From a virus, in the IMG/VR virus record IMGVR_UViG_3300035698_001168, positions 1 through 41,902 of that record: 41,902 nt of DNA; one strand, written 5' to 3'. Shown here one piece after another: positions 1 to 24,100 of this stretch. The position numbers and the translations under genes were made by a program. The notes below the pieces were generated by a model, which did not search any database, was not told the origin of the DNA, and was given only the letters and a program-made list of their open reading frames with translations. Each line of letters begins with the position of its first letter. Within the stretch, counting starts at the first letter, position 1.

Positions 1-562
1 GTTCAAGACGAGCATACAGCTCGTCAAACTGTGCAGGAACCATAACTTGATTAATAGTAATGTAAACGCCAGCATCCATTAACTGGAGACATCGATCGCC
101 GAAAACTTCTTCGTTTGCAAACTCTGCGTGGTAGCTTGCAGTAATGCTTCTTCTCTGTAGCGAAGCTGTTGAGTTAATCCATTTGTCCCACCACTTAATT
201 CCAGGGCTTAGATTAGTAGTCATGTGGATGCTTTGGTATCCAGGAAAACTGTCATTGCAGTAATGCTTTATAACCTCTGCAAAGTATTTATATGCAGTGG
301 GCTCGCCGCCGCTAAAACTGAAGTGGAAATCAGTAAACCCGTTTGCGCGAGCTTGCTTCTTTATTTCGTCTATTGCGTTTGTGTATACCATAAGTTTTTG
401 GTGATCCGGCGTACTAGATCTTGCATAACTCCAGCAGTAAGAACAATTATAGTTACAAAATCTGGCGAGTATCCAAGAGACAGTAAATAAATCAGTATCG
501 AGTAATGTTTTTTGTCCGAAACTTGTAATGTCTTCAAATGGAATTTGTTGGTATTTGTTCAT
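1..562 (-). CDS. Radical SAM protein (3' part missing at window edge)
   Basis: Reading the minus strand from the ATG at 562 gives 187 residues without a stop to the window edge, so the C-terminal part is missing. Residues 36-43 are CNYNCSYC, the CxxxCxxC motif that binds the 4Fe-4S cluster of radical SAM enzymes, and residues 85-87 are the GGE motif that contacts S-adenosylmethionine. Members of this superfamily cleave SAM to a 5'-deoxyadenosyl radical; the substrate cannot be told from sequence. The start overlaps the end of the preceding radical SAM gene by 29 bp, so the two are probably co-translated. I chose this ATG because the homologous region begins directly after it; no good ribosome binding site is visible. 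It differs clearly from the two other radical SAM proteins in this cassette, so it is not a simple duplicate. Confidence 0.85.
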   Translation of the reverse strand, partial: MNKYQQIPFEDITSFGQKTLLDTDLFTVSWILARFCNYNCSYCWSYARSSTPDHQKLMVYTNAIDEIKKQARANGFTDFHFSFSGGEPTAYKYFAEVIKHYCNDSFPGYQSIHMTTNLSPGIKWWDKWINSTASLQRRSITASYHAEFANEEVFGDRCLQLMDAGVYITINQVMVPAQFDELYARLE

Positions 563-1607
563 ATTTATTAGTCTCGTATATTATTTTACTACACTGTCTT
601 GCGCACGTCATGCACTTGTCTTTTCCGGACCAAAAGTCTGGCATTAGTCTAAACAAATTCTCGTTAGTCGACAATACGTAGTCGCTGCATTTAGGAATTC
701 CGACCATTGACAGAACTTCTTTTGTGTTCTGTACACTTAAATTGCGCAAGTAGTGTATAGGTAAGTCTTCCTTAATAGGTTCCTCTAGATAATCTCCTCC
801 TATCCAACAACACGGAAATATATTCCCATGTGGGTCTACATATATGCCCTGGTCGCTTATGCACTTAGGTGTAATTTCGCATGATTCGATAGCAGTTTCT
901 CTAGTTTCTTTATCTAAAAGTGCAGATAGTGAATATGACGGAGTTTTCTTAAATTGATCAAGCTGCGCTGGCTTGATTGTGTATTCAACATTACCTGAAT
1001 TGCCATGCACTTCGTATTCGTCCATTTCGTAGAATCTAGTAGTACTTACGAAATTAACACGCTCGACTCCTAAGCCTAGTAAATATTTGTTTAGTTCGCT
1101 AACATCGTGTTCGTTATGCGCAAATACCAAACTATCAACAATTGCGCGACCGCCGGCAGCAATAAATGCTGTTAAGTTTTCAATTACCTTGTCGTACTTA
1201 GTGTTCTTTCTATATAGTTCGTGCTTCCCTTTAAACCCATCAACTGCAAATATTACTTCGACGTTATGCTGTGCTAGATTTGCCCACCACTTAGGTGATC
1301 GCATTCCGCCATTTGTGTGAATTGCAAGTCTGGTTGTTGGATTGCACTTGCGTACATATGCGTATATCTCTAAACAATCCTTTGCGAATGCAGGATCACC
1401 GTAGTTGCCGCAGCTATAAAAGTTTGTTAACTGCGCTAGGAACTTAATCGGAAACCATTCTTTAAATTGTTCAATGGACATATCGCCATTACTAATAAAC
1501 GGGCGTGCTGCGCCACCGTGAAGATTCCTAGCGCACATAGGACACTGTGCCTGGCACTTATCAGTGAGTTCTATATGTACTGTTTTAACGTCGTTAACTA
1601 ATTGCAT
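534..1607 (-). CDS. Radical SAM protein with SPASM/twitch-like C-terminus
   Basis: 357 aa. The N-terminal CxxxCxxC motif is C18-C22-C25 (CQAQCPMC). The C-terminal half holds further cysteines in the layout of a SPASM/twitch auxiliary cluster domain: C243, C249, the pair C266-C267 inside VDPHGNIFPCCW, and a final set C332, C335, C339. SPASM-type enzymes typically modify peptides or proteins, some modify sugars; here the substrate is unknown. The gene begins after a 146-bp gap, the largest untranslated gap in the minus-strand cluster, so it may have its own promoter, though I could not identify one. No small open frame resembling a RiPP precursor peptide is visible in that gap. The ribosome binding site is weak (AGG-like). 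It overlaps the following radical SAM gene by 29 bp. Confidence 0.88.
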   Translation of the reverse strand: MQLVNDVKTVHIELTDKCQAQCPMCARNLHGGAARPFISNGDMSIEQFKEWFPIKFLAQLTNFYSCGNYGDPAFAKDCLEIYAYVRKCNPTTRLAIHTNGGMRSPKWWANLAQHNVEVIFAVDGFKGKHELYRKNTKYDKVIENLTAFIAAGGRAIVDSLVFAHNEHDVSELNKYLLGLGVERVNFVSTTRFYEMDEYEVHGNSGNVEYTIKPAQLDQFKKTPSYSLSALLDKETRETAIESCEITPKCISDQGIYVDPHGNIFPCCWIGGDYLEEPIKEDLPIHYLRNLSVQNTKEVLSMVGIPKCSDYVLSTNENLFRLMPDFWSGKDKCMTCARQCSKIIYETNKYEQIPTNSI

Positions 1608-1730
1608 AGTACTGTCATTGCCTGTGTGTTGTGCTTAAGTAAGTTTCTAAAAGGCCAAGCCTGTTAGCACTAGATGTAGTGTTTAAATGGAGTTAAAAGC
1701 AGGTATAATTACAACATGTAGTCAAAATAT

Positions 1731-1765
1731 AAAAAATATTATAATATGGTTCTCTAGGAGCCATA
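1731..1765 (-). terminator. Possible weak terminator after the 229-aa gene
   Basis: On the minus strand the end of the 229-aa gene forms an imperfect hairpin (TATGG at 1765-1761 pairing with CCATA at 1749-1745, extended by two more pairs across a mismatch) that includes the stop codon. An AT-only stretch with six consecutive T follows about nine bases later. The distance from stem to T-run is longer than in a classic intrinsic terminator, so this is tentative. The rest of the 1608-1753 gap shows nothing else I can name. Confidence 0.25.
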
Positions 1766-2443
1766 CTGCTTTAAATTATAGTAGTCTCGCAGCCAAGTAA
1801 AGTTGTTTATCTTTGCTAATTCTGCTGAATTATTCCTGTGTTCTGTGCCGAAGCTAAGACCAGCTTCGGCCCCAAGTTCTGCATAGATTCCAAATTCTTT
1901 ATCCCGATTATTAGCTAACCATTTCTCTAAACGATCAGTGGTGTCTGTGTCGTCTTGGCGATCAATTACACGCGACGACAGCTTAACGCATTCGCGGAAC
2001 GCTGACTTCCATGTATTAAACGGATCAGTGTTAAACTTAGTTACATTAGAAACGGCATCCATTGCGCTAAAGTAATCCGAGATGCTTGTTGTCATGTCTG
2101 TCTTAGTTAAGTCCATGTTCTGCGTAAGTTTACGGGGAAGTAACTTTACTCCGCCGTAACCATAACAAAGGCCGTTTATCGGATTCGTTGAGCGCCAAAC
2201 ATGCACCGTAGACAAGTCTTGTTTTGGAACATTGTAGTTAAATTCAAAGTCGTCAACAACCCATGCATCGCCGTCTACTACATAAAACATCTTAGTTACT
2301 GCTTTGTTTGCCGCTGCTATATGTGCATTATGTATTCCGGTAATGCCGTGAACTCTCATAGCTAGCGGTGCTAATTCCTGTAACCGAGCAAAGTTTTCAT
2401 CTGCATTTTTTTCGTCGTAACTGATGAATACAATATCATACAT
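1754..2443 (-). CDS. Putative glycosyltransferase-like protein, VDGD type
   Basis: 229 aa. Starts with MYDIVFISYDE and has FYVVDGD with D57-G58-D59, resembling the nucleotide-sugar/metal-binding DxD motif of GT-A fold glycosyltransferases. It is a paralogue of the 300-aa protein at 3812-4714, which has LSYDEPNAEKN at its start and VDGD at residues 63-66; both also share a later NGLxYGxGGVK motif. Reaction and acceptor are unknown. The ATG is preceded by GAGGTG (2449-2454) and overlaps the end of the radical SAM gene at 2436 by 8 bp. Since the radical SAM gene lies between the two VDGD paralogues, the three may act on the same substrate. The DxD reading is by motif only. Confidence 0.6.
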   Translation of the reverse strand: MYDIVFISYDEKNADENFARLQELAPLAMRVHGITGIHNAHIAAANKAVTKMFYVVDGDAWVVDDFEFNYNVPKQDLSTVHVWRSTNPINGLCYGYGGVKLLPRKLTQNMDLTKTDMTTSISDYFSAMDAVSNVTKFNTDPFNTWKSAFRECVKLSSRVIDRQDDTDTTDRLEKWLANNRDKEFGIYAELGAEAGLSFGTEHRNNSAELAKINNFTWLRDYYNLKQYGS

Positions 2444-3815
2444 TTAGTAACACCTCGTGTAATCCGGCATATTCCGGAAAAGTTTCCTTAAAATTTGTAC
2501 CGCGGCGCTTATCGTACTCGTCAACAAACTTACAGAAATCCTGTGCATACTCAGTTGCTTGTGCTGACTGTTCTAGATACACACAAAATCTTTCAACTAA
2601 GTCAACTTCTTCAAGATACAACCGTGCATATTTTTGTGGTGAATTATATTTTACCCAACGTTTTGCAAACTTGCGGTACTTCTTAGCATGTACTTTTCTA
2701 TCTTCAATTGGCAAGACTGTACATTGCAAATGCGGTGGCCACCTTAGATAATTAATACTTAACGGGATGCGATTAACAGCAAATAAAGTATTGTATGTAT
2801 CTCGTAGTTCCATTACAAATTCAAGGAATTCGTTAAGCCTCGGAAGTGCTAAAATATTTATTGTTGTCATCATAGATACGTTAACATTTGTTTCGGTAAG
2901 AATACGATGGACATTCTTAATCCAATTATCGTATTTTAATCCGTGGCGTATGTATTCTGCTTGTTTTCCGGCACTTTCCATGCTAGTAAATACACTTACT
3001 TCTTTAACTTTTCCAGCAAGATTATTCATTCGCTTGATTAACTTATCAATTAATACGTCCGAAACGTCTAAGTTAGTGTTAAGAGAAAAGGTAAGCTCAG
3101 GGCATGGATTATTATCAAGATAATCAAACATTGCCCATGTATCTTTGCTCATAAGAGGCTCGCCTCCCGTTACTCGGAATACTCGCAAGTGCGGAAGCGC
3201 AGACGGAAACCATTTCCAAAATGCATCAAGGTATGGATTTTCTTCAGTGTGATGGAAAGGCAGTTTGCCTGCATCTTTTAATTCTATCAAATCGTGCGAT
3301 CCATACTTTACAGGGTAAGGCCCATTATCTCTAATGTCCTTCATCCAAGTTGAACTAATATCCGGGGAACAATACGAGCAAGCAAAATTACACGCATTTG
3401 AAAATGATACTTCTAAGTAAGCGGGAAACACATCTGCATTTGGATCAGAGTGTTTAATTTCGTCAAATCTTTCCCAAGCCCACCAATCTGCTGTTTTTAA
3501 GTGCCTGTCAGAAAAATGGCTGCCTTCTTGATCTTCTAATGTCCAACAATAATCGCACTCACTAGGGCGTTCGCCGTTTAGCATTTTTGCTCGCTGCTTC
3601 TTTTTGTATATGCTATTATGTAACGCTGCTGGATTGCTTAATACTTCCTGTTCTGAAATTTTATGAGCCGCAGGGTGATGACAAGAATGATTAAAGCCGG
3701 TTTGCAGATATAATGTAGTCTGTAGCCATTTTGCAGTACAAAACGAGCAGCTAACTGAGTTTATCTCATCGCGCTTTAGTTCCAGTGCTGCTATTCTGTT
3801 TTCGTTAGTACTCAT
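2436..3815 (-). CDS. Twitch-domain-type radical SAM protein
   Basis: 459 aa. The radical SAM motif is C142-C146-C149 (CNFACSYC), followed by a TGGEPLM motif near residue 215. An N-terminal region of about 130 residues precedes it and carries its own cysteines (SFCTAKW, a CHH, then CDYCW), which may bind a second iron-sulfur cluster. This long N-terminal extension with CxxCW-like elements is typical of the phage-borne group usually named twitch domain-containing radical SAM proteins; that family name is from memory, not from a search. The start overlaps the stop of the 300-aa glycosyltransferase-like gene in ATGA, and its end overlaps the 229-aa gene by 8 bp, so it is embedded in one translationally coupled unit. 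Substrate unknown. Confidence 0.87.
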   Translation of the reverse strand: MSTNENRIAALELKRDEINSVSCSFCTAKWLQTTLYLQTGFNHSCHHPAAHKISEQEVLSNPAALHNSIYKKKQRAKMLNGERPSECDYCWTLEDQEGSHFSDRHLKTADWWAWERFDEIKHSDPNADVFPAYLEVSFSNACNFACSYCSPDISSTWMKDIRDNGPYPVKYGSHDLIELKDAGKLPFHHTEENPYLDAFWKWFPSALPHLRVFRVTGGEPLMSKDTWAMFDYLDNNPCPELTFSLNTNLDVSDVLIDKLIKRMNNLAGKVKEVSVFTSMESAGKQAEYIRHGLKYDNWIKNVHRILTETNVNVSMMTTINILALPRLNEFLEFVMELRDTYNTLFAVNRIPLSINYLRWPPHLQCTVLPIEDRKVHAKKYRKFAKRWVKYNSPQKYARLYLEEVDLVERFCVYLEQSAQATEYAQDFCKFVDEYDKRRGTNFKETFPEYAGLHEVLLNV

Positions 3816-4714
3816 CTAATTTTATCCGTTCGCGTAGGAGATTGGTACGTGGCCTTAAAAAACTTACTTTGGTCGCTGTTTAGTGGATCAAGGGCGATTG
3901 GCAAATCTAAGTGATTCTGCAGTGCTTGTCCGTATTCGGCAGTAAGTTTTTTAACGTCTACATCCTTTGAAAATCCCCAGTAATTGTCAAGAAAATCAAA
4001 GTCACGTACCTGAGTGTGGTCTATCTTATCGAGCATCGTATTTACAATACCTTGTCTTGCTCCAAGAATCGCCCATTCACCGTTCTTTACATCCATTCCT
4101 ACCATAGACCAGATGTATAACCAGTGTAAGCAGCGCCAGTGTAGCTGCTTAAATTCTTTTGGTTCAACAGGAACACCGCGATTTAAGGATAGTTTAACAC
4201 CTTCTCGAAATCCTGCTCGCCATGCTTGCTTTGCAGATCCATTAATGTATGTATCCGAAGCAGTTTGGTTCATTTGGTAGTATTCGGCATCCCAACAAAA
4301 ATCAACTTGTGCCATTATGTTAGCAGGGTCTGCATTTTCGTGAGTACGCATGTTAAATACGTATTCTTTAGACCAACATTTTACTCCGCCGTTGCCGTAC
4401 ATTAAGCCGTTTACTTGATTCTGACCGCACCAACTAATAACTAGTTTCGACAATTCTTCTTCACTTTTGTTACTAACATCAACTTCGTTAGATAAAAATC
4501 CAGGTCGCACTTGGTTGTCGCCGTCAACTGTTATAAATCGGTCAGTGTCGCTTATACTTGCACATGCTTTGTGCGCTGCATCGGATCCCTTAACGCCGTG
4601 TATCCGTTTTGTCCACGGAAACTTCATGCAAAGATCAGCATAGTTTTTTTCTGCGTTAGGCTCGTCGTATGACAAATATATAATGTCACATTCTTGAAAA
4701 TTAAGTGTTGCCAT
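3812..4714 (-). CDS. Putative glycosyltransferase-like protein, VDGD type (paralogue)
   Basis: 300 aa when started at the ATG at 4714 (MATLNFQECD). An upstream in-frame ATG at 4774 would add 20 residues but overlaps the preceding gene by 74 bp and has no ribosome binding site, while the 4714 start has TAGGAG (4720-4725) five bases before it. The protein has IIYLSYDEPNAEKN near the N-terminus and ITVDGD with D64-G65-D66, a DxD-like motif, and then VNGLMYGNGGVK. It is clearly related to the 229-aa protein at 1754-2443 but longer at the C-terminus. A sugar transferase role is inferred from the DxD motif and from the neighbouring transferase genes. Confidence 0.6.
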   Translation of the reverse strand: MATLNFQECDIIYLSYDEPNAEKNYADLCMKFPWTKRIHGVKGSDAAHKACASISDTDRFITVDGDNQVRPGFLSNEVDVSNKSEEELSKLVISWCGQNQVNGLMYGNGGVKCWSKEYVFNMRTHENADPANIMAQVDFCWDAEYYQMNQTASDTYINGSAKQAWRAGFREGVKLSLNRGVPVEPKEFKQLHWRCLHWLYIWSMVGMDVKNGEWAILGARQGIVNTMLDKIDHTQVRDFDFLDNYWGFSKDVDVKKLTAEYGQALQNHLDLPIALDPLNSDQSKFFKATYQSPTRTDKIR

Positions 4715-5222
4715 TGGTGCTCCTATAAAAACGATAAGTATCAAACTTTTTAGATGTATATATGCTAATGTCATTATACGGCATCTGTAAGTTTATTGGT
4801 ACTGGGTTTGAAAAATCAAACATAAGTGTATCATAAACAATATTTGGATCATCTCTACTAGTGATGCCAAAATACATGTTAAAGGTTAAGTTACCTCGGT
4901 GCTTGATCATGTTTGCTCGCAACTCCTTGCCTACTTCCAGAGTCCACTTGCTGTTATCTTGCGTTAGTGTTATGTCGGGATCATCAAGATACGTAGCAGG
5001 AACTTGATATAGCGAACTACCAAAACTAGCGTCATCTGGCACTAATTCTTTTTTCTTAAATTGTAAGCACTTTAACTCAACAATGTAATCAGACATAGGC
5101 TCTCGGCCTTGCATAATTGCTTCTACTTCGGAATACAGTACAGCTACTCTATTTTCATTTACATCAACTGCGTTGCCAATTTTGTATATTTCGCCAGTTC
5201 CTTCTTTAAATGCTGCAAACAT
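4701..5222 (-). CDS. Unknown phage protein, 173 aa
   Basis: I do not recognise this protein. It is 173 aa, with no signal peptide, transmembrane segment or cysteine-rich motif. The sequence alternates polar and hydrophobic residues in a way that suggests mostly beta structure in the second half (for example LTFNMYFGITS and YRFYRST at the end). The ATG follows the stop of the 276-aa glycosyltransferase-like gene as TAATG, and its end overlaps the start of the next gene by 14 bp, so it belongs to the same coupled unit. A virion surface component, or an accessory to the transferases, is possible; the sequence does not decide. Confidence 0.75.
   Translation of the reverse strand: MFAAFKEGTGEIYKIGNAVDVNENRVAVLYSEVEAIMQGREPMSDYIVELKCLQFKKKELVPDDASFGSSLYQVPATYLDDPDITLTQDNSKWTLEVGKELRANMIKHRGNLTFNMYFGITSRDDPNIVYDTLMFDFSNPVPINLQMPYNDISIYTSKKFDTYRFYRSTNGNT
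4720..4725 (-). promoter_or_regulatory. Ribosome binding site deciding the 4714 start
   Basis: TAGGAG on the minus strand, five bases upstream of the ATG at 4714. It supports the shorter start of the glycosyltransferase-like gene over the ATG at 4774. Confidence 0.75.
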
Positions 5223-6052
5223 TACAATACTTTCCTTTCGAATTTATTTATTACATCGTCACTTGCAAACTCATCAGATGTATAGTGAAAGATACCGACT
5301 TGATTAAAATTTCCTATGCGTAACGTTAAGTCATCTGATAGATATGCCCCGACTTGTTGCATCCACCGGGACGGCGGATCAATCCACCCTTGTACATGCG
5401 GTTTCATATGTACAAATTTAGGAACTAGAACGCTAGTGTTAGTAATTTTGTCTTCTATGCCCAGGCATATTGCGGCAACTGCGGCTGTGATATCCATGGT
5501 TGGGTGCTTTGGCTGCTTAAGTGGAACAAATCTACCGTAAAATAATTCCCAGTTATTGCTAATTAGTTCTACCATCTTATAAAACTCATGAGCAAATTCA
5601 GACTTCTTAAAATAATGCATGCCGCCGTAAATATTTGGTAGATTATTTGCGGCGAAAGTCTTTCTATAATAAGTAGAGGTTACCTGTTCGTCTCTATAAG
5701 TATACGAATTCGACAAATAGTACACATCGTAATTTGCAAATTGCTTCCATACATGTGATAAATCTTGCATCACAAGTACATCTGCGTCAAATACAATTGT
5801 TTCTTCATAAGGAGAAACATGATACATCTTCCATCGATTCTCTGTTCGAAAGCGGGACTCTGATTTTTCAAACCAAGGTATGCGTTTTACTTTGTCAAAC
5901 AACGGTCTCCATTTCTTAGGTACTCGATTATGTGTAATTATAGAAATTGGTTCGTTATTGCCTGCTGCCTTTAAACTCATAGCAAGTAATGCTGCCTGTT
6001 TAACGTAGTTTTGTCCTTGAGCAAATACTAAGTATCCTTTATAACTGTTCAT
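5222..6052 (-). CDS. Putative glycosyltransferase, GT-A/GT8-like
   Basis: 276 aa. The N-terminus reads KGYLVFAQGQNYVKQAALLA, then a Rossmann-like stretch PISIIT. Residues 87-93 are VFDADVL, with D89-A90-D91 as a DxD motif of the kind that binds metal and nucleotide-sugar in GT-A transferases, and a later GGMHYFKKS segment fits the GT8-like fold. It is paralogous to the 277-aa protein just upstream (both have YVKQAxxLA near the start and a DxD in the middle). It overlaps that gene by 14 bp. Likely substrates would be phage DNA, virion protein or host envelope glycans; none can be chosen from the sequence. Confidence 0.72.
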   Translation of the reverse strand: MNSYKGYLVFAQGQNYVKQAALLAMSLKAAGNNEPISIITHNRVPKKWRPLFDKVKRIPWFEKSESRFRTENRWKMYHVSPYEETIVFDADVLVMQDLSHVWKQFANYDVYYLSNSYTYRDEQVTSTYYRKTFAANNLPNIYGGMHYFKKSEFAHEFYKMVELISNNWELFYGRFVPLKQPKHPTMDITAAVAAICLGIEDKITNTSVLVPKFVHMKPHVQGWIDPPSRWMQQVGAYLSDDLTLRIGNFNQVGIFHYTSDEFASDDVINKFERKVL

Positions 6053-6872
6053 CTATGCACCTGTTTAAGCTAAACTTATTCATTACGTGTAAATTAGATC
6101 CTTTAAATTTAACTCCGGTATATTCTCCAAGATAATTTTCTTTTTCTACTAGCACAAAGTATTCGTCCTCTTGTATTTCCCACAACAGATCTCTGTCAGT
6201 GGCGTAAAATAAAGTGCCCGGCATGCAACCTACAAAGCCTGGGGTTAGATGAATAGCAATACTAAGCAACCAATCATTACGAAATGTTGATCCCGGTAGT
6301 TGATATAGCGGTTTAAAATGATGCCAGTTTTTTTGTATGTGTTTTAGTAAGTCAAAAAATACTTCAACTTGCGCATCCTTACGAAAGTATACGCAAGTGG
6401 CCCAATAAAAATCCGGCCCAGTGTCGCTTATTTTTTTAAACTCACTATAATCGCGCCACCCTGCTAAGTCTACTGCATCTTTATACGCTAACATAGGTTG
6501 TGTTGAGTCAAAACAATTTAAAAACTTCGAGTCTCCTATTACCATATCCGAATCTAGCAGCAAAGTTTCGTCATACGGAGTTATGTCATGCGCACTAGTC
6601 CTGCTATTATTGTTAAATTCTAATTTCTCTTGCGTAAGTGAGCCGTCATAATAGCGCTTGTGTGTAAACTCAGCATTATCTTTTATTTTAATAATGTGTT
6701 CAAATACTTCGTTGCAGTCAGGATATTGTGATTGTAAAAACGCCACTGAATTAGTAGCTATAGCAGTGCCTATGCCTAAGTATTGCTTTACTCGCTTGGC
6801 TAGGAAATATGCTTGTTTAACATAGTCTATCTTGCTGTTATTGCATGCAAAAACTAGTACTCCTTTGCTCAT
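6039..6872 (-). CDS. Putative glycosyltransferase, GT-A/GT8-like (paralogue)
   Basis: 277 aa. Starts MSKGVLVFACNNSKIDYVKQAYFLA, with LLLDSDMVI carrying D107-S108-D109 as the DxD motif. Related to the following 276-aa protein over its length, though divergent. The ATG overlaps the stop of the 115-aa gene by four bases (ATGA), and its 3' end overlaps the next gene by 14 bp. Two adjacent divergent copies suggest sequential transfer of two sugars, or a heterodimer, but this is inference. Confidence 0.7.
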   Translation of the reverse strand: MSKGVLVFACNNSKIDYVKQAYFLAKRVKQYLGIGTAIATNSVAFLQSQYPDCNEVFEHIIKIKDNAEFTHKRYYDGSLTQEKLEFNNNSRTSAHDITPYDETLLLDSDMVIGDSKFLNCFDSTQPMLAYKDAVDLAGWRDYSEFKKISDTGPDFYWATCVYFRKDAQVEVFFDLLKHIQKNWHHFKPLYQLPGSTFRNDWLLSIAIHLTPGFVGCMPGTLFYATDRDLLWEIQEDEYFVLVEKENYLGEYTGVKFKGSNLHVMNKFSLNRCIDEQL

Positions 6873-7216
6873 AAGTCAAGCAGTCCTTCAATTTTTCTAT
6901 TCTTTTTAAGCTTTTCGTATTCGACATAAAATTCATTTGATGCTTCTGCGTATACACCGCTTAAGTCGACATGAAATTCAACAAGGTCTTTAATTAAAAT
7001 AGGAGTGCCGTTGTCGTCGATCAACACTGCAAACTCTCGGCCAGAGCGGATGGTACCATCAATAAATGTTATTAATTCTTTCGTGGCTTTGAATTGAGCG
7101 CCGTGTGCATAATGGATCAGGCCTTCTTCGTACCGCTCTCGCAGTAAACGTTTTTGCGTGTTAACAGTTGTCATGTAATTCGAAAAGTCGAGAACTTTTT
7201 GTAGTCGTTCGTCCAT
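6869..7216 (-). CDS. Small conserved phage protein of unknown function
   Basis: 115 aa. The N-terminal half (LDFSNYMTTVNTQKRLLRER) is probably helical. The end (NEFYVEYEKLKKNRKIEGLLDL) is a charged helix. The pattern SNYMTT, KELITFI, LIDDNGTPI and EYEKLKKNR matches, from memory, a short hypothetical protein widespread in T4-like marine phages. The start is well supported: TAGGAA lies at 7223-7228, six bases before the ATG, and a perfect TATAAATA late-promoter motif lies 30 bases upstream. It is the first gene of the accessory cassette that continues with the transferases and radical SAM genes. Function unknown. Confidence 0.85.
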   Translation of the reverse strand: MDERLQKVLDFSNYMTTVNTQKRLLRERYEEGLIHYAHGAQFKATKELITFIDGTIRSGREFAVLIDDNGTPILIKDLVEFHVDLSGVYAEASNEFYVEYEKLKKNRKIEGLLDL

Positions 7217-7246
7217 GATGGGTTCCTATAAATTAAGTGTGTACTT

Positions 7247-7254
7247 TATTTATA
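7247..7254 (-). promoter_or_regulatory. Late promoter motif TATAAATA
   Basis: An exact TATAAATA on the minus strand, the consensus -10-like box read by T4 gp55-type late sigma factors. It overlaps the stop codon of the 305-aa gene and lies 30 bases before the ATG of the 115-aa gene, leaving room for a short leader and a ribosome binding site. It would make the accessory cassette a late transcript. Confidence 0.65.
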
Positions 7255-8167
7255 GGTTAGAGGTAGTTGTGAAGGATGGGTCTGGTATAGTTACGCCGGT
7301 GCCAGACGCGCGGAATGTTTGTATTGTGCTAGTAACGGTTCCATTAATATTTTCGTCTACTGACGGGCCTGGTTCTACACCGCCTTGCTGATCGCCGGTA
7401 TCGTCGTCATTTAATTCTACTAAAAATCTAATAACGCTAGTCGAGTCAGCTCTTGCTTGAATAGTATAATCATTTTCGGCGTACACGCCAGATCCTACTT
7501 TTGTGTAAATTTGTTGATAGCTTCCAGTTAAGTCGTAATTACCATTATTACTGCCGGAGCCGGAGCCGGTTGCATTTGTTTCAGTATAATTAAAACTAAT
7601 TACTCCTGCCTCAGATAACATAGAGGACCAATTAGCTGTTTTAGCTCCAGAGCCTCCTGCAATTCCAGCCGAGAATCTTATCTCGCCGTGTGTATTAAAA
7701 AAGTAACGACGCGCATCGGCATCAGCAAACGTGACAGTAAATTCATGTGTAATAGTTCCGTTCCAGGTAGTTGACCGCACGCTGGTTACAATCGTAGCTA
7801 ACGTAGCCTGACTAGGATCCATAACAAACTTATTAGTTACTATCCCGGTAGTAGCTACGTCGTAGTCAACATAACCTTTAATTGTACCAGCTGGGTTAGT
7901 GCTGTTATTGTCATCGGCAATTATGTCACCGGTTGTCAAGTCTGATATGCTTGATATACCAGCACCGTTTTGGTGTAAGAAACAATCGCTGATATCAGAA
8001 TACAACTCTTGCATATCCAATGCAGTAACCAAACTAGTTGCGGCCACTGTGCTACTTGCAACTACTTGACCGTACCCGTCTGTGCCGGATCCAGTGCCGT
8101 AAATGTTTGCAACTCGTGTTTGTATGTTGTTATAACGCACTGCTGTGATTATATCGCCTATTGCCAT
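7250..8167 (-). CDS. Tail-fibre-like virion protein (paralogue 2)
   Basis: 305 aa. The N-terminus has GTGSGTDGYGQ and YSDISDCFLHQNG, then a central ADARRYFFNTHGEIRFSA motif, then glycine/serine-rich beta segments and NYDLTGSYQQIYTK. This pattern is familiar from fibre-like structural proteins in marine T4-like phages. It is a tandem paralogue of the 295-aa protein at 8181-9068, the two matching along their full length. It is the last gene of the fibre block. An AAGG motif near 8183-8186 precedes the start. Likely a virion appendage or decoration protein; host receptor binding is inferred from position only. Confidence 0.78.
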   Translation of the reverse strand: MAIGDIITAVRYNNIQTRVANIYGTGSGTDGYGQVVASSTVAATSLVTALDMQELYSDISDCFLHQNGAGISSISDLTTGDIIADDNNSTNPAGTIKGYVDYDVATTGIVTNKFVMDPSQATLATIVTSVRSTTWNGTITHEFTVTFADADARRYFFNTHGEIRFSAGIAGGSGAKTANWSSMLSEAGVISFNYTETNATGSGSGSNNGNYDLTGSYQQIYTKVGSGVYAENDYTIQARADSTSVIRFLVELNDDDTGDQQGGVEPGPSVDENINGTVTSTIQTFRASGTGVTIPDPSFTTTSNL

Positions 8168-8180
8168 GACAATATTTACC

Positions 8181-9068
8181 TTATGAAAGTGTTGATATAG
8201 TTATATATGACGGGGGTGGTACTGATACGTTTGTGCCAGTTGCACGGAATTCATCGAAATTACTAGTTATAGTTCCATCTACGTTTTCATCAGGATTGCC
8301 TGTGTTGTCATCGTTAAAGGTAACTCTAAACTGTAGTTGAGCCGTTGTATTTGCTCTTGCTTGTACTGTATAATCATTGTCGCTGTAAACACCCGATCCC
8401 GTTTTAACAAATACAGTCTGATACGACCCAGTCAAATCGTAATTTCCAATGTTACTGCCGACTCCTGATCCACCGGTGCTAGTTTCATTATAGTTAAACT
8501 TAACTATTGTCATAGTCGATAGCATTCCTGTCCAATTAGCTGTCTTAGCTCCGGTGCCTCCTGTAATACTAGCCGAAAATCGCATTTCACCGCCTGCGTT
8601 AAAAAAGTGCCTGCGGTGATCGCTGTCAGTAAAGGTAACTCTAAATTCATGACTAATAGTTCCGTTCCACTGCGTCGAGCGAATACTTTGTAACACATTT
8701 TGAGCTGTTGCTTGATTGGAGCTAACTAGTAATGCATCGCCTTCAATAGTCGGCATTACATTCTCGTAGTCAGCAAAGCCCTTCCGGGCACCATCAATAC
8801 CAGTGCCGACTTCGTCGGCAATTATGTCTTGATTGTCTATCTCTACAATTGATGTATTATTAGAGCCAGTTTGGTGATTGCTTGCTGCTTGTATGTCGGA
8901 GTAAAGAGCATCCATTGAATCTTCTGTAGCAATATCGTTAACCGATACCGGCGAGCTAGCTAAAGCTTGCCCGTATCCCGAAGTACCGGAGCCTGTTCCC
9001 ATAACGCTTGCGATGCGCGAATGAACATTGTTATACCGTGCTGCTGTTATTGTATCGCCGATTGCCAT
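8181..9068 (-). CDS. Tail-fibre-like virion protein (paralogue 1)
   Basis: 295 aa. Same layout as its downstream neighbour: GTGSGTSGYGQ near residue 25, YSDIQAASNHQTG, a central DHRRHFFNAGGEMRFSAS block, NYDLTGSYQTVFVKTGSGVY and a DDNTG...DGTITS end. The FFNxGGxxRFS block is a hallmark I associate with marine phage fibre-like proteins. It starts three bases after the stop of the 495-aa fibre protein, with AAGG in the overlap as ribosome binding site. The tandem copies differ enough that duplication is old or under diversifying selection; dN/dS was not computed. Confidence 0.78.
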   Translation of the reverse strand: MAIGDTITAARYNNVHSRIASVMGTGSGTSGYGQALASSPVSVNDIATEDSMDALYSDIQAASNHQTGSNNTSIVEIDNQDIIADEVGTGIDGARKGFADYENVMPTIEGDALLVSSNQATAQNVLQSIRSTQWNGTISHEFRVTFTDSDHRRHFFNAGGEMRFSASITGGTGAKTANWTGMLSTMTIVKFNYNETSTGGSGVGSNIGNYDLTGSYQTVFVKTGSGVYSDNDYTVQARANTTAQLQFRVTFNDDNTGNPDENVDGTITSNFDEFRATGTNVSVPPPSYITISTLS

Positions 9069-15191: not shown

Positions 15192-15199
15192 TATTTATT
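15192..15199 (-). promoter_or_regulatory. Late-promoter-like motif AATAAATA
   Basis: Minus-strand AATAAATA followed by C, one mismatch from TATAAATA, overlapping the stop codon of the giant gene and leaving 22 bases to the ATG at 15169. The spacing is identical to that of the box before gp6 (33447-33454). Confidence 0.5.
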
Positions 15200-18100
15200 C
15201 AGGAAGATCCACTATTGCTGCACTTAAGAATCTGCCTATTTCATTTTCTGCGCGGCTCAGTTTTGTTCCTGGATCTGACCAAATTTTTCCAATCTTTCTA
15301 ACAACCGTAATTTTAGTACCCTCGGCCGGCGTAGTATCTACGGTTAAAATTGACCCAAATACTGTAACTTCGGCTTCGGCTATTTCGTCAGCCTCTGGTG
15401 AATCTTGACCAAGTGCTTGATTAAATACACTAATGCTGTTTTTGCGCTGGCGCCTGCCAGCAACAAATGTTTCAAAATCATTTATACTAGATGGTGTAAA
15501 ATCTAGCTCAAATGCATTAGTAGTTCCGTCTGCTATTAACGTTTGTGTTAAAAATCTATCCTTATAAGGAATTGTTTCCTGCATTCCTTGATCTTGCAGT
15601 CTTTCGCCTGCAAGGTGAGTAACTGGAATACTAGTACCTAGTGTCCCGCGTCTTAGTTGCCGTAATGTATTACCCTGTTTAACAAAGTACTCAATGCGCT
15701 CACCGTTAACAAACATGACCCCAGGTATATTACGTGCGCTGTCTGGGGCCGGCAGTGATGTTCCGTCTACAAGTTCAATTCTTAGATCATACCAATTTAA
15801 GTCCTGCGCTAATTCGTACGTATTTGTGTCATTTAATCGCTTATAATGCGTGCGATTTAACATATCTTTAAATATTCTAAAACCAAACGGAGTAGTAGTT
15901 GGCGCTGTAGTAAACTGTATTAGTTCGATTATATCGTCGCTAGCTAGCGTGTTAATGATCTTTACGTACTCGCGATTATTAGTTATAAAATAATCCACGC
16001 TTGGCGTTAATAGGACACGATTCTTAGTTACCCAAACATACTGTGCATCAAGTGCTGTGGTTCGCAACTTAATAAGCCCCGAAGTAAGATTATGATACTG
16101 AAAGTAATCTGTTGTGTCCGAAGTCAACGTTACTCGGCTAACAACATCAAGCTGTGTTCTTTCGATCCCTAATGCATCGTGATTGCTAAATGACCATACT
16201 GTAATTATTTCTCCATCCACCGGTGGCTGCTGTGTTGCAATTATATTGCCGTTTACTATGTCATATCTAATGTCGTCGTCTATGTAGACTCGTAATTCGT
16301 CTCCAACAGTGCCGGTATCCGGAAATAATACTACACTCGAGCTCAATGAATCCCATCTCCACGTCACAGTGATATCTTGCTTAATACCGTTTATATATAT
16401 CGATACATTATTACTGTCAACACTAGCGGAAGGCAGCTGCCAAGATTTAAGCGCATAGATGCGTCGTTCTTCAATTACAAACTTATCATTGTAGCCGGCA
16501 TCTAGTATACCGCTACCTGCCCTAACAATAGTATTATACCGCGATGGCTCTTGTCCAAACGGTACTGGGTCTAGCGCATAAGCAACAGTGCTTCCGTCGG
16601 CTACGATAGTTTGTTTTGATACAATACTGTACTGTTGTAACTCACCTACGTGAATTGTAAAATGTACATTAGTATCAACTAGCGGCGCGGCGCCAAATTC
16701 TACGTTAATTCTTCCTTGTCCGTTATCAACTAGTACGGTGTCAACAGGATTACCATCAATTAATACATACGATTGCAAGTTATCCTGTACAGCCACCGGA
16801 GTAGTAAAGCTCCGCGTGCTTCCGTCGCCTACAAGTGTCTGTACGTCTAGTATAGTTAAGCCAGATTCGCCTAGTACTATAATACTTACTTTAGTGCCGG
16901 CGTCCGGTGCCGCACCTAAAGTAATCTTAAGTGTGCGATAATCAATAGTAACGTCATCGTAAATAACATTATCAATTTTTACAAAAACTGCTTCATTTGA
17001 GTTTGGACGTATATCAATGTCATACTCGGTAGTTACTCCGTCACTTGAGAAGTTAGTTGAGAATATATTTGCACCTCCTGACCCGGCTTGTTCATAAACG
17101 CGGATGTCAAGTGTGTCGAGCAGCTGGCCCGGAACAAGCTCTTCTGGACCCTTGCTAGTAGTCGGGGTCACAAATCCGTCACCGTCTACTACTATGTCAT
17201 CTGCTCGTATACCGGTTGCAGTTGAATAAGCTAAGTCGCCGCCTGATAACTGTGTATCGAATCCCGCTGGGTCTGGAGTAAAACTACCATCGCTAGTAGA
17301 CTTACGGATAATTATAATGTCGCCGTCTTGTGTTACAATTCCAAGATCCTGTAACGGAATAGTATCCTGCACTCCGTCGCCTATTATAGTTTGCATAATT
17401 GCATTTGGATTTTCGGGTGTTGAATCACTCGGGTCGTCAATCCTAATACCGTTGCGGTAAACATTGTATGCTACGCCATCTTCGAGCGGCGTAGCAAGGT
17501 CTATTGTAACTGTTGATCCGTCGAGGTCGAATATCTCATCTGCAAACGTATCATCGTATTGGTCCCACAATGTTGTGTACCGAGGCTGCGGGTCCCATCC
17601 ACCGACGCCGCTAAAGTCAAATCCGCGAACTTCCACGCCGCCGTAGTCGATGCCGTCTAACAACTGACCTAGGTCTTTGCCTAACTGTCCGGTTGTTGGA
17701 TTATAGAAATAATTAATTCTATCCTGGGCGTGTAGCATAGTTATATTCTTTTTATAAGAAAGTACAACTGTAGAATTACTTGCAGGGGGACTAACAAAAG
17801 ATATTTCGCCAAAGTACCTATCGTATCCTTTTGTTTGGTCTAGTACGTTTGCATAAGTGTACTCGCTCTGCAGAATATCTATATCATTAATTAAAATTGA
17901 AATAGTGTTTAACTTAGTGTCCATTGGAAACTTAAGACGAAACTTAGTCTTGCTTCCTGTTCCGACAACTACTTCGGTTTCATTTATACTAGTCACTAAG
18001 TACGCGCCAGTTGTTCTATCAAACCTAATAGCTAAGTGTGTTCTACGGGCAAGCGATTCGCCTATAATTGCCGAGGCCAATGCTGGAATCCCGTTGTCAG

Positions 18101-21100
18101 TTTGCGTACCGTCAATTACTACAGACGGCGCACTTGTGTAGCCTGATCCGCTATTGGTAATAGTAATGCGTGTCACGCGCCCTAAGCTTAGTGAGGCAAT
18201 AGCAGTTGCTCCTGACCCGCCTCCGCCCACTAACCGTATTACAGGACGCTCCTGGTAACCTGATCCGCCAGTAGAGATTTTTACGTCAGTAATTTGAAAT
18301 GTGTAATTCTCAAGCCAGTCTCGTAATGGATATTGTTCAACCTCTGGTCGAGCACCAGTAAGTACTCCGTTTCTAACTTTAATGCTCTGCGGCTCAATTA
18401 GATTAGTGTCTGCATTGTAAGTTGGCTGCAAGTCAAAATCAGTAGCCGAAGTCTGCGTGCTCTCTAACGACTGATACGAACTTAGATATTCTCGTACTTT
18501 TGTCTTGTACGGCTTAACTTCGTCAACATACTCCTGATAACTTGGAAGATTGTCATTCTGGAATGTTACTTTCTGCGTTAATTCGCCAACGTTATGACGT
18601 GCTTTTACAAAGCTGGTCTTAAATGCCCAGTCTATATAATTTTGTTCACTAAAGGCGTATCGCAAGCTTGAGAAAAACAAACGGTTGTATTCTATTGCAA
18701 GTTCACCAATAAACAAATCATCGCGGATTGCTTCGAATATCTTACGACGTTCGACGATCGGCTGCGAATCGTACAACGAAATGTCATAGTTGTCCGTGTC
18801 GTATCCTGCAGAGTTTGTAGCTACGTCGTACAACGATGCACTAAACTGTATTGTTCCGGATTCTCTACCAATAGTTTCATAATTAACAGTGTAGTCGACG
18901 CTATCTCGGTCGTCTACCTTGCGTAGAAGCAACCACCCACCCGAGCCAACATTTTCAATCTTAACAGTATCGCCGATGGCGTCGTTAAGCCCGCTAAGTT
19001 GGTACGTCTCACTTATTATAAAATTAACTTGGCTAAACTGACTAACGCCCGGTGCATACCAGTTGACGTAATTCCAATATTTAGCTACGTCAAATTCTTG
19101 TGATTTTACTCTAGCCCACTCGCTGGTTAATTCGTTCCATCCAAATATACTCCAACTGCCGCTCAATGTGCTATCAGCTTCAACTAGCGCCGAATAGCGG
19201 CGGACTAGTAGCGCAGTAGTGTCATCATAGTTTGACCCGCTGTTAATAACGCTAACTGCTGTTAATACCCCTAAGTTATTAATTTCAGTGCTAAACTCTG
19301 CTTCGTTGCCATTTCCCACAATAGTTATAGTCGGAGCAGTCTTATAACCTCGGCCGGCATCGACTATATCAACACGCACAATTTTACCATCAACAATTAT
19401 CGGCGTTATATATGCACGCTTAGTCCGCGCGACGCTAATGAAGTCAAGCTCTTCTACGGTAGAAATCGCTTCGTCGTACAACCCTTCGCTAAATGATGGT
19501 ACTAAATCAGTTTCAAGTAATGAAGAAATATCTGCATTCTCAACAATTAAGTTATTGAGTAAGATAATATTTGTATACTCAAAGTATTGCTTAAGTGCTT
19601 CGATATTATTTACAAACCACCCCTGTCGAGGACGATTTAACATACCATATTTTAATTTAGGAGACAGCGCCGGATCAGGAACCTGTCTGCCAGCAGCATC
19701 GTATCCAACTAAGCTATCAAGCCATTTTAGTTCTATATCTCTCTTAGGCCGCGAACTTTCTAATCCGTCTGTGATAATTTGATATTCGTTGTGTACATTC
19801 ATATCACGATTATCTAATGTCCAGACTCGAAAGTTAATAACAATATCCTTGTCTTCAATAATCGAATTTACATTGTGTAGTGAAAACCTATTATCCGCAA
19901 GCACGGTAACATAACGATAATTCTGCGCAAACGGATCTGCAATTAATCGCTCAATGTCAAGGACACTTGTGCTTCTAAACTCGAGATTAGGAATGTTAGA
20001 TTTGCCTTTAACCCAATAGTAATATTTGTTAGAAAAACTTTGGGCAATTGCATCATATTTCCGTTTCTGTGTATACGCATCGTCGCTGTACTTAGTTGTT
20101 CCGCTGACGCCCTGCGCAAGGCCTTGTTCTGTTCCAGCTAATATATCCCATTCCGACGGAAGAAGGTCGCTTTCTACCCATTCGTAAACATCAATACTTG
20201 CACCCGGAAACAGTGTGTTCCACGTGTTTGTTTGGTACATAATAGAACCCTGATACGGATCTAAAAATAGTGCAGTTGAAAGGTTCCACCATACACGTCC
20301 AACAAAGCGATCAGCCCAGTGATCGGTAGCGTCAACAACTACGTTCTCATTTCCTGTGCTGTACACTGCTGGGTCGTATCGAGTCTTGTAACTTAAGTCT
20401 TGCTCGGCTGGTCCGGCAATCTTGCCCTGTATAGGATCGATATAATCCAACGACGCTACTAATTGATTACTTCTACGATTATACATAAAGACAGTTTTAA
20501 TATCATCGACTACTACTGGCTTAGTCGGCGTGCGGTGTGTATTCCACAAACGCAACTGTGAGTTTCTACGATAATCAACCATAGTTCCTTCGTATACGCC
20601 ATTGATATTAGCGCGCGGTATTCCAATATATACATGATTTCCGCTTGCTAATACGCTATCTCCGAAGAATGTTACTGAATCGTCATCGAACTCGAACTGT
20701 CTTGCATACAGCAGGCTATCGTTTATTCTTTCGTAAACTTTCACTGAACCGCTGTCTAAATTGATGTTATTGAAGCGAGTTAACTTGTTATCAAACGTAG
20801 TTTGGCCGCTGTCAAACGTAGTTTCTCGTTCTATATCACCATTCAAGCTAGTAATAACTAACTGGTCGGTATCAAACGATACTCGGTATCCGAACTTCTC
20901 TGCTGCTTCGTCAGTTATGCTAGTAAGCACTTGTCTTAATACATACGTTCCGTTTTCTTGTATATAAACACTTACACGGCCTTGGTCGGTCCGTTTAGTA
21001 TCATCATAGGGCTCGCCTATAGCAAGTAACTTACCGTCCGGGGACATTGCTACACTTTCTCCGAATCCCGTATAGAGCTGCGAGGGGTTAATGGTTTGGT

Positions 21101-24100
21101 CTAATTTATAATGACCATATGTGCGTCTAAAAATTTGCACAGCAGATGGATAAAATGTACTGTCTTCTGTACCAGAAAGATCAGCAAACGCCTTAGACGA
21201 AACTGCAAGTATATCGCCAGTCTGCGAAGCGGAAAAATCATATGCATACTGCTTTGTTCCGTTATCTGCTACGACATAAGAAGAGTCGTCGTTATCGGGT
21301 ATGCTTGCTGTACCAGGCAGGTATCCAAGATATGCAATGTCACTGGTTGTTTCAACCCAATCGGTTGCGTTAAACTGCTGCCCCGCTGCAATATTAGTTA
21401 TTGCTGTGTATAATATGCCTGCTTCGAGTACAACTTCACCTTCTTTATAAAAATTGATGGCCTCAAAGCCGCCTCGGTAGTTCCTGTCACGGCCGGTGTC
21501 CCAGTTATAAGTAGTGCCATTGTTTATTCCATTTAGTACAATATAAAGTTGTCCTGATGATGCAGGAGACTCGTCGCCAGCCGCGGAAATAAATGCAGTA
21601 TATAATTCTCCGTCTTGTTTAATTTCGATTTTTGTACCAAGCTGTGCTCCACTAACAGGATTTTCGACAATATAAGTATTTTGATAGCGATAAAATCCAT
21701 TTGAGGTTCTGGCGTATATTGCATACATGCCTTGTTGGAGATATTCACTAGCTGTGCCGCCGGCAGCAGCTTCGATGTTATACACTTGCTGCCAAGAATT
21801 ATTACTTGATGTTGGAGTATTTGCTAGCCTGCTAATACCAAGAACCGTTGCGTCTTCGATATATAACCAATACTCTGCATCGAGTGTTTCTTGTACCGCC
21901 GGTATAGCAAAGCTAGAGGTATTTTCAAATACTAATATCTTGCCCATGTCAGCAGTAGCAGATACTTCTTCAACAGAAACACTTTCAATTCTTCCTATTT
22001 CCCTATCAACACCTCCGGTACTTACGCCGTTAAGTATCAGTTGAGCACTTTCGCCAAAGTCGTTTCCGAGACTCCAGACCCCGACGGTATCTATAACATA
22101 TATTCTAACCGAGTTAAACTTTCTTTCATAGTGCGATACTCGAGCAGTTGCTCCTGTAACTGAATCTTCAATACTGTCGTCTATTGCTGGCTCATACGGA
22201 TCACCTAAATTAGTGTCGCCGTCTGTATCAATAACTTGAAACTCTGTAAAGGTTATGTCAATATAACCGTCCCACATAGCAACAACAGTATGATTGCTAT
22301 TTACATAGTTTCGATCAAGTTTGGTTGGTTCTAAGTCAACCGCTAAGGGCAAAAATACGCCTACGCTAGTATTAACTGCTACAGCATCACTGAACAATTT
22401 AGTTGATCGGATAACCCAACGAGTGTCAAGTTGCGGGCCAAGAGCGTCGCCGGGATTTCCCTGATACGACAAAACACCAAACATTGATATCTGGTCGTGA
22501 CCGCTTGCCTTTGTGCCAATTCTTGTAATATCATCTAGAACGTTAGCGTAGCCGTTTATACCCCTTAAATCGTCTGCTTGTATAAAATCTACATATACTA
22601 AACCGTAGCCGGGGTCAACTTGATTAGCTCCGTTATCGTACAACGGAACAGTAAGGAAAAAGTAGCCGCCGACTCCTGCCGGGTTAAAGAACGGAATCAC
22701 ATAGTTGCCAATAGACGTTGTGTTATTAAAAAACAGTTCGCCGGTTTCTGTAAATACACCATTGCTCTCTTTAACATATACAACTAAACTTCCTGCAGAC
22801 TGCGCAACATAATGAATAATACCGATTGCTGATTGAGTAGTAACTAGGTCACCGACAGACGGTACATTAACAACCGAATCAATATAAAATATGTGATCAA
22901 TTTTTTCTTGTATAGTATGTCGATTGGTGATAACAGTTGAATCAATGCCAGCTACTAGTCCGGCAAATGGTTCAGTTTCGACCACCGGCAATCCGTTATA
23001 CGACGAATACTTATTCCACGCTAGTACTATCTCATCACCAACTGCGCCACCTTCGTACATATCAGTCGGAGCACGTACTAGTATGTGATCCACCATTGTA
23101 TTCGGTAAATTATAGTTTCCTAGTGTTAATAAATTTAATGCAGTTGAATCCTCAACTTGCGAAATAGTTGCATAACTATCCCACGTCGATACAGCAACAC
23201 CTGTTTCTGCTTTTCTAATGTGCGCTAATGCTCGCCAGTAGCTTTCGTTGTGCATAACAATATCAGCCTTGGCATAATCTACAGTGGGCTCAAAGTCTCC
23301 TCTATATCTAGTAGACACATTTGATGCACCGGGCGATCCTATAATTAACCACTTGCTGTCTGGAGAAATTGCAACAGATCCGCCGAATCGTTCCATGCTG
23401 TCTGCAAGGTTAGGAGTTGGCGTTATGTTTTCTTTAAACAATAAGTTACTGTTTTCAGTCGGGCGCGTGTACATGCTAACCTGGCCGTTTTCGAAATCAG
23501 GTGCGCCGATTGCAACAACCCGGTTATCTAGCGAAGCAGATATAGAAGAGCCAAAATTGTCAACATTGCTGTCAAGGTCATTTGGGTTGTCAATTCGATG
23601 TTGTTCTACAAAGATGTCCAAGTTTATAAAAGTAGTCCACGTGTTGTTTATTGCGTTGTCTACCCATATAAGTTCATTCTTGTCTAGAGTGCCGACTTGT
23701 ATTTCGTTATTTGCTTCTTCAATTGTTTGAAATCTCTTTGATATAAAGCGAGTAGCACTTACACTTAGATTTTCGCCTTCGCTTATATCACTTGTTTCTA
23801 TCCAAACTTCATTGTTAGTGACTTTAGTAATTTCATAAATTCCCGAGCCGGTAACTACACCAATGACGCCAATGTGAGCGCCAATAACAAAGTCATCTGG
23901 TATTACTGTAAAGAAAAGTTTAGTAGTCGAACCATCTAAGATAATCTCATCAATAATATAATCAGTTGATGAGTACCGCACTACGTCCCACGTCTGGCCG
24001 TCTTTACCTATCCACACATAGTCGCCTAGCTGCAAGTCTTCTGTGCTTAAGTCAAGTATATCTCTCTTATTAAGTACAAGAGTTAAAACATCGTCAGTGT

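Follow-up and report, generated by a model that had tools for sequence, protein, structure and literature searches.

This study focused on a cassette of mostly overlapping genes at one end of a 41,902-base fragment of virus DNA (IMG/VR record IMGVR_UViG_3300035698_001168; the whole stretch is called the window below), which carries T4-type baseplate, hub, fibre and late sigma-factor genes. The cassette, at positions 1-7216, sits directly behind the tail-fibre genes of this uncultivated T4-like phage. Judged by gene order in related loci, it is a unit with a fixed core, u115-GT8-GT8-X-VDGD, behind tail-fibre genes, and a variable tail of 0-10 radical SAM genes. The reading we favour, at a probability of roughly 40%, is that it specifies a pathway for building and tailoring a glycoconjugate, tied to the host-recognition region of T4-like phages, with a protein of the adsorption apparatus as the preferred acceptor. 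All of its genes are on the minus strand and, from 7216 down to 1, they and the motif that precedes them are as follows:

7247-7254, minus strand: TATAAATA, T4 late-promoter-like motif about 30 nucleotides before the u115 start codon (motif match)
6869-7216, minus strand: u115, conserved 115-residue protein, first gene of the unit (open reading frame; upstream in 66 of 67 VDGD-anchored loci)
6039-6872, minus strand: GTb, GT8/glycogenin-like glycosyltransferase, 277 residues (open reading frame, family clustering, LDxD motif, family profile)
5222-6052, minus strand: GTa, GT8/glycogenin-like glycosyltransferase, 276 residues (open reading frame, LDxD motif, family profile)
4701-5222, minus strand: X, beta-rich two-domain protein, 173 residues (open reading frame, alignment, structure model)
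3812-4714, minus strand: VD2, VDGD-type protein of predicted GT-A fold, core copy (invariant D84/D86, fold matches of the model)
2436-3815, minus strand: rS3, N-terminal-twitch radical SAM enzyme (NF033640), 459 residues (334 bits against a cut-off of 170)
1754-2443, minus strand: VD1, second VDGD-type protein, 229 residues (open reading frame, homology to VD2)
534-1607, minus strand: rS2, radical SAM enzyme with C-terminal SPASM-like cysteines, 357 residues (Pfam score, profile matches)
2-562, minus strand: rS1, radical SAM gene truncated at its 3' end by the edge of the window (open reading frame, Pfam score)

The original prediction, made from the letters of the window, had described eight nearly all overlapping genes at 1-6872. 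All of these open reading frames were found in place on the minus strand, with overlaps at six of the seven junctions and also at the GTb/u115 junction. The overlaps measure 1-29 nucleotides throughout the run from u115 to rS1, the sole exception being a 146-nucleotide gap between VD1 and rS2. The run is therefore real, but its extent needed correction, as one gene further right, u115, belongs to the unit. The open reading frame of VD2 reaches 4774, and its homologues point to the ATG at 4714 as the likelier start.

The fixed core emerged from two scans. Among 80 viral loci anchored on rS3, those carrying the region mostly have fibre, u115, GT8, GT8, X, VDGD and radical SAM genes in that order. 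A scan anchored on VDGD took the 80 best of at least 588 relatives, and is hence biased to close relatives; in its viral loci with enough flank, the GT8 pair (67/67), X (67/67) and u115 (66/67) lay upstream of VDGD, while a radical SAM gene followed within seven genes in only 54 of 68. The expectation that the cassette would be conserved as a unit in other phages thus held for the core, which recurs in many aquatic phages, and only in part for the radical SAM genes. Clustered at 70% identity, the core VDGD copies fall into 46 groups, and at 60% into 15, so the loci do not represent a single repeated genome. Neighbouring cassette genes overlap in 1013 of 1182 pairs, and up to nine CX3CX2C genes occur within one 21-kb viral locus. 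Accessory genes of the relatives include those for NAD-epimerase, UDP-glucose dehydrogenase, methyltransferase, nitroreductase, dTDP-sugar isomerase, DegT aminotransferase, cytidylyltransferases, carbamoyltransferase and GDSL hydrolases. By a simple hydropathy rule, a membrane segment was predicted in only 14 of 1305 cassette genes, so that lipid-linked export machinery is not visible.

The three radical SAM proteins of the window all score above the Pfam cut-off (PF04055, 29.5 bits; rS1 45, rS2 37.7 and rS3 31.3 bits) and keep the CX3CX2C motif, including the truncated rS1, the full-length relatives of which have about 330 residues. They were rightly described as different enzymes: rS3 is a clear member of NF033640 (N_Twi_rSAM, twitch domain-containing radical SAM) at 334.1 bits against a cut-off of 170, whereas rS1 (incomplete, 34.3 bits) and rS2 (34.6 bits) are not members. 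Relatives of rS3 within NF033640 occur in phages and Bdellovibrionota; its profile found no match among PDB sequences. A weak match links rS2 to BlsE, a cytosylglucuronate decarboxylase acting in sugar-nucleoside chemistry. In a set of 242 distinct radical SAM copies, picked by profile and length, all retain CX3CX2C, and a twitch/SPASM-like motif is present at the N-terminus of 224. Copies inside one cassette share a median identity of 24%, and for 201 of 202 tested the best match lay in another phage, not in their own cassette, which rules out recent tandem duplication. By these comparisons the copies are ancient and non-redundant, and this makes a multi-step pathway plausible. Such a pathway, as first proposed for the window, is further supported by the fibre linkage and the conserved unit.

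The two pairs of transferase-like genes were likewise confirmed: GTa and GTb belong to one family in a clustering of cassette proteins, and VD1 and VD2 are homologous (30% identity). The GTa/GTb family, which has an LDxD motif, gave a profile that matched the N-terminal half of glycogenin among PDB sequences at 1e-7. Both aspartates of the VDGD-type DxD motif are invariant in 35 sequences, and a VDGD structure model had a mean predicted local distance difference test score (pLDDT) of 89.4. Compared with PDB structures, it gave Z scores of about 9 (best 9.5) to a mixture of GT-A and nucleotidyltransferase folds, a PBCV-1 capsid glycosyltransferase included; the VDGD profile found no PDB sequence at an E value of 1 or less. 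The model supports a GT-A fold for VDGD, and sugar-transfer activity is predicted. Taken with the profile match to glycogenin, itself a protein-glycosylating enzyme, the sugar-nucleotide accessory genes and the likeness of rS2 to BlsE, the DxD motif and predicted fold of VDGD argue for a glycan pathway. After the second VDGD gene, relatives typically have c8, rS2, rS1 or more radical SAM genes. The c8 family (L037 13471-14073, plus strand, and relatives; about 200-400 residues) has no Pfam match and, by eye, a methyltransferase-like motif; in Bdellovibrionota it comes after the VDGD gene.

The fastest-diverging member of the unit is X, with a median pairwise identity of 21% over the same 40 loci in which the adjacent fibre gene tf3 gave 27%, radical SAM, GT8 and u115 37-41%, and VDGD 61%. 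The X model is beta-rich (mean pLDDT 86.8), and its best Z score against PDB structures was 4.6, with none of 5 or more and no usable fold match. The alignment of u115 varied too much to be used for a scan, so no anchor independent of the enzymes was usable.

Cultured phages gave few counterparts. A near-identity DNA search with positions 1-8200 found no match among them, and by tblastn neither VD2 nor u115 matched. The same searches linked GTa only to the cyanophage ACG-2014f (distant, 24% identity), rS3 to two Vibrio phages (26%) and rS2 to three Campylobacter records (25-26%). The cassette is thus almost absent from cultured phages, which may explain why it has been so little studied.

Transcription of the cassette as a single phage late transcript, also part of the original prediction, was not borne out. 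The late motif TATAAATA at 7254-7247, just before u115, is suggestive only, as the motif is not enriched across the window (3 seen, 5.25 expected), and in relatives it is weakly enriched before u115 (4/103 versus 1.0). Before the fibre genes of the same loci it is enriched (tf3, 20/127 versus 1.9 expected; TF, 11/170 versus 2.2). A sigma-70-type site, counted when at least 10 of 12 positions matched no more than 100 nucleotides before u115, was present in 67 of 103 distinct relatives, against 4.2 in shuffled sequences, and 58 reached 11/12, against 0.2; no such site precedes u115 in the window itself. These are sequence signals only, but their position indicates that the unit begins at u115, and the timing of its expression seems to differ between lineages.

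Counterparts were also found in bacterial chromosomes. Scanning cellular genomes for VDGD yielded 25 loci, several of them evidently phage contigs in metagenome bins, since fibres, u115 and GT8 were present. Other contigs, assigned to Bdellovibrionota (L175, L180, L185-L188), have VDGD beside or near homologues of rSAM, rS1, rS2 and c8; the cellular counterparts are mostly metagenome-assembled, with contigs of up to 0.9 Mb, and mis-binning is possible. VDGD was present in 18 of 290 genomes of a Bdellovibrionota sample. Six VDGD-bearing genomes, five from Bdellovibrionota and one of the Roseobacter group, had 3-33 NF033640 matches each, with matches above the cut-off in all five of the former. 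One Bdellovibrionota contig (L214-L215, G002:C1:745513-774880) packs more than 10 NF033640 radical SAM genes into about 30 kb, together with a relative of the CP220 amidinotransferase and an Asp/Asn beta-hydroxylase. The amidinotransferase relative (L215 13166-14242, minus strand) is homologous to that of phage CP220 (3.5e-19) and to genes in the aquatic phage loci L098 and L163, which links the Campylobacter phage, aquatic phage and Bdellovibrionota settings. Some Bdellovibrionota VDGD loci lie near glycosyltransferases (GT2- and PMT-type genes). In Roseobacter-group genomes (L178, L179, L181, L182) a lone VDGD gene has a conserved neighbourhood without radical SAM genes, and one such gene lies close to a group-1 glycosyltransferase. 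The linkage on which the original prediction was built therefore holds for the GT8-X-VDGD core, but is partly lost for radical SAM and VDGD genes in Bdellovibrionota.

How the favoured pathway might work can be outlined in three steps. In the cytosol, the GT8/glycogenin-like pair and the GT-A enzyme VDGD would attach sugars in turn to an acceptor. Through C-H chemistry, the non-redundant radical SAM enzymes, together with the lineage-specific epimerases, dehydrogenases, methyltransferases and hydrolases, would then alter these sugars or the carrier that bears them. The product would finally be displayed at the site of host recognition. Several observations weigh against this view. GTa and GTb as single sequences gave no Pfam match over the cut-offs, and the fold matches of VDGD are middling, with nucleotidyltransferases among them. 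The sigma-70-type sites of relatives suggest early expression, which the decoration of virions would not need. The Bdellovibrionota contigs L175, L180 and L185-L188 have no fibre, u115, GT8 or X genes nearby, which shows that the radical SAM/VDGD part is not tied to virions; with the promoter signals (67/103), such fibre-free sets weaken a strictly late, virion-only role. The radical SAM-rich runs of Bdellovibrionota, with their amidinotransferase relative and beta-hydroxylase, also leave room for radical SAM chemistry on substrates other than sugars.

As acceptor, an adsorption-apparatus protein comes first by a narrow margin over the host envelope; the candidates are the fibre proteins and X, which diverges fast. 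The soluble enzymes, the glycogenin-like transferases and the fibre-like divergence of X speak for such a protein, while the sigma-70-type promoters and the lipopolysaccharide view put forward for pelagimyophages (PMC7029224) favour the envelope. Conversion of the host envelope is possible, if somewhat improbable. The GT8 enzymes would act on the lipopolysaccharide core or another surface glycan of the host and the tailoring enzymes would alter it, masking the receptor of the linked fibre; superinfection exclusion, or a smaller loss of progeny to debris, would result, and linkage to the fibre genes would keep receptor binding and masking matched. Consistent with this, the sigma-70-type site heads the unit in most relatives, whereas the fibre genes carry the late motif, and some of the Bdellovibrionota counterparts have GT2- and PMT-type genes nearby. 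However, no flippase, polymerase or O-antigen ligase was seen, membrane segments are scarce among the cassette genes, and the window is without the sigma-70-type site. A peptide or small-molecule route appears unlikely to us. Here the SPASM/twitch radical SAM enzymes, many relatives of which are peptide maturases, would alter a ribosomal peptide or the side chains of proteins, or would produce a small molecule, with the product then completed by the glycosyltransferases. The Bdellovibrionota clusters fit such a route, with numerous NF033640 genes within some 30 kb, few visible glycan genes, and an amidinotransferase relative, a beta-hydroxylase and a QueC-like protein; but X and u115 exceed the usual size of a precursor, and no precursor peptide or recognition element for ribosomally synthesized and post-translationally modified peptides was recognised, no dedicated tool having been used.

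T4-like phages are able to glycosylate DNA, and it might be supposed that the glycosyltransferases, together with the radical SAM enzymes, protect the phage DNA from restriction by altering its bases, as the early-type promoters of relatives would allow. The cassette lies by tail fibres and not by replication genes, no hydroxymethylase or base-pyrophosphorylase genes were seen in the cassettes examined, and thymidylate synthase appeared in only one of 84 accessory groups, all of which makes DNA hypermodification very improbable. Least credible of all is a viperin-like antiviral or exclusion enzyme accompanied by unrelated genes. The weak similarity of rS1 to viperins (NF038283, 39.8 bits; PADLOC pVip, 39 bits) stays well short of the 180-bit cut-off of NF038283 and spans only about 75 residues at the cluster-binding part common to radical SAM proteins, and a full-length relative (L006 rS1) also reaches just 40 bits; a defence role for rS1 was rejected on these grounds. 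A wider version of the glycoconjugate pathway is offered as a speculation of low probability: VDGD and radical SAM genes may be one exchangeable surface-tailoring system common to T4-like phages and predatory Bdellovibrionota, both of which find Gram-negative cells by means of fibres, and in phages, joined to the fixed GT8-X core, it may add a radical-modified, previously unseen glycan to X or fibre proteins, or mark an occupied host.

The gene order of the window is a gp6-like baseplate gene, a giant open reading frame, fibre genes and the cassette. The giant frame (15195-30002, minus strand; 4935 residues), between the baseplate gene and the fibre genes, occupies the place held by VrlC (2001 residues) in the cultured pelagimyophage HTVC008M, to which it showed no similarity by BLASTP. 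Two adjoining paralogues of about 300 residues, tf305 and tf295 (7250-9068, minus strand), lie at the fibre end and are duplicated in some relatives too. A plus-strand frame at 40503-41900 matches late sigma factor at its start and, weakly, a thymidylate synthase PHROG in its later part, and is possibly a fusion.

Two published systems are closest to the cassette. The host-recognition cluster of pelagimyophages, which bears GT8 genes, has been reported to include radical SAM cassettes, and O-chain modification was proposed for its GT8 genes (PMC7029224); in the available parts of that paper there is no description of the fixed u115-GT8-GT8-X-VDGD order, of the VDGD family or of the promoter. 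The pelagimyophage cluster lies, with fibres, between baseplate/VrlC genes and the neck gene gp14; the window order fits on the baseplate side, although its giant frame is unlike the VrlC of HTVC008M by BLASTP, and the gp14 side is outside the window. None of the cassette families was found in HTVC008M (positions 1-95000). Campylobacter phages CP220 and CPt10 have an exchangeable five-gene radical SAM module (PMC2853527) which, like the cassette, is a run of radical SAM genes in a T4-related phage, exchanged as a block. It includes two genes with nucleotide-diphospho-sugar transferase domains, and differs in having a glycine-amidinotransferase-like gene, none being present in the visible part of the cassette, the left end of which is cut; its placement by fibre genes is not shown. 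Profiles of u115, X, GT8 and VDGD found no convincing match in the CP220 and Vibrio K566 modules, the latter giving one weak match to the GT8 profile (E 0.007). Of the families named above, NF033640 includes rS3 and leaves out rS1 and rS2, and its name carries no function, while the likeness of GTa and GTb to glycogenin is one of the family profile. A comparison with the fibre adhesins of Bdellovibrio (PMC10769870) would be an analogy only.

The open-licence literature yielded no study on radical SAM modification linked to fibres, and the published descriptions, in the parts available, did not include the fixed core, the VDGD family, the apparent non-redundancy of the radical SAM copies, the putative promoter signal or the candidate bacterial counterpart. 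Radical SAM genes of phages have repeatedly been noted as unusual, without a function attached. Here they appear as the variable extension of a fibre-linked glycosyltransferase core, likely with its own promoter in most relatives. A minimal set for expression and assay is thereby defined (u115, the two GT8 genes, X, VDGD and the first radical SAM gene), with which the role of phage radical SAM clusters becomes directly testable.

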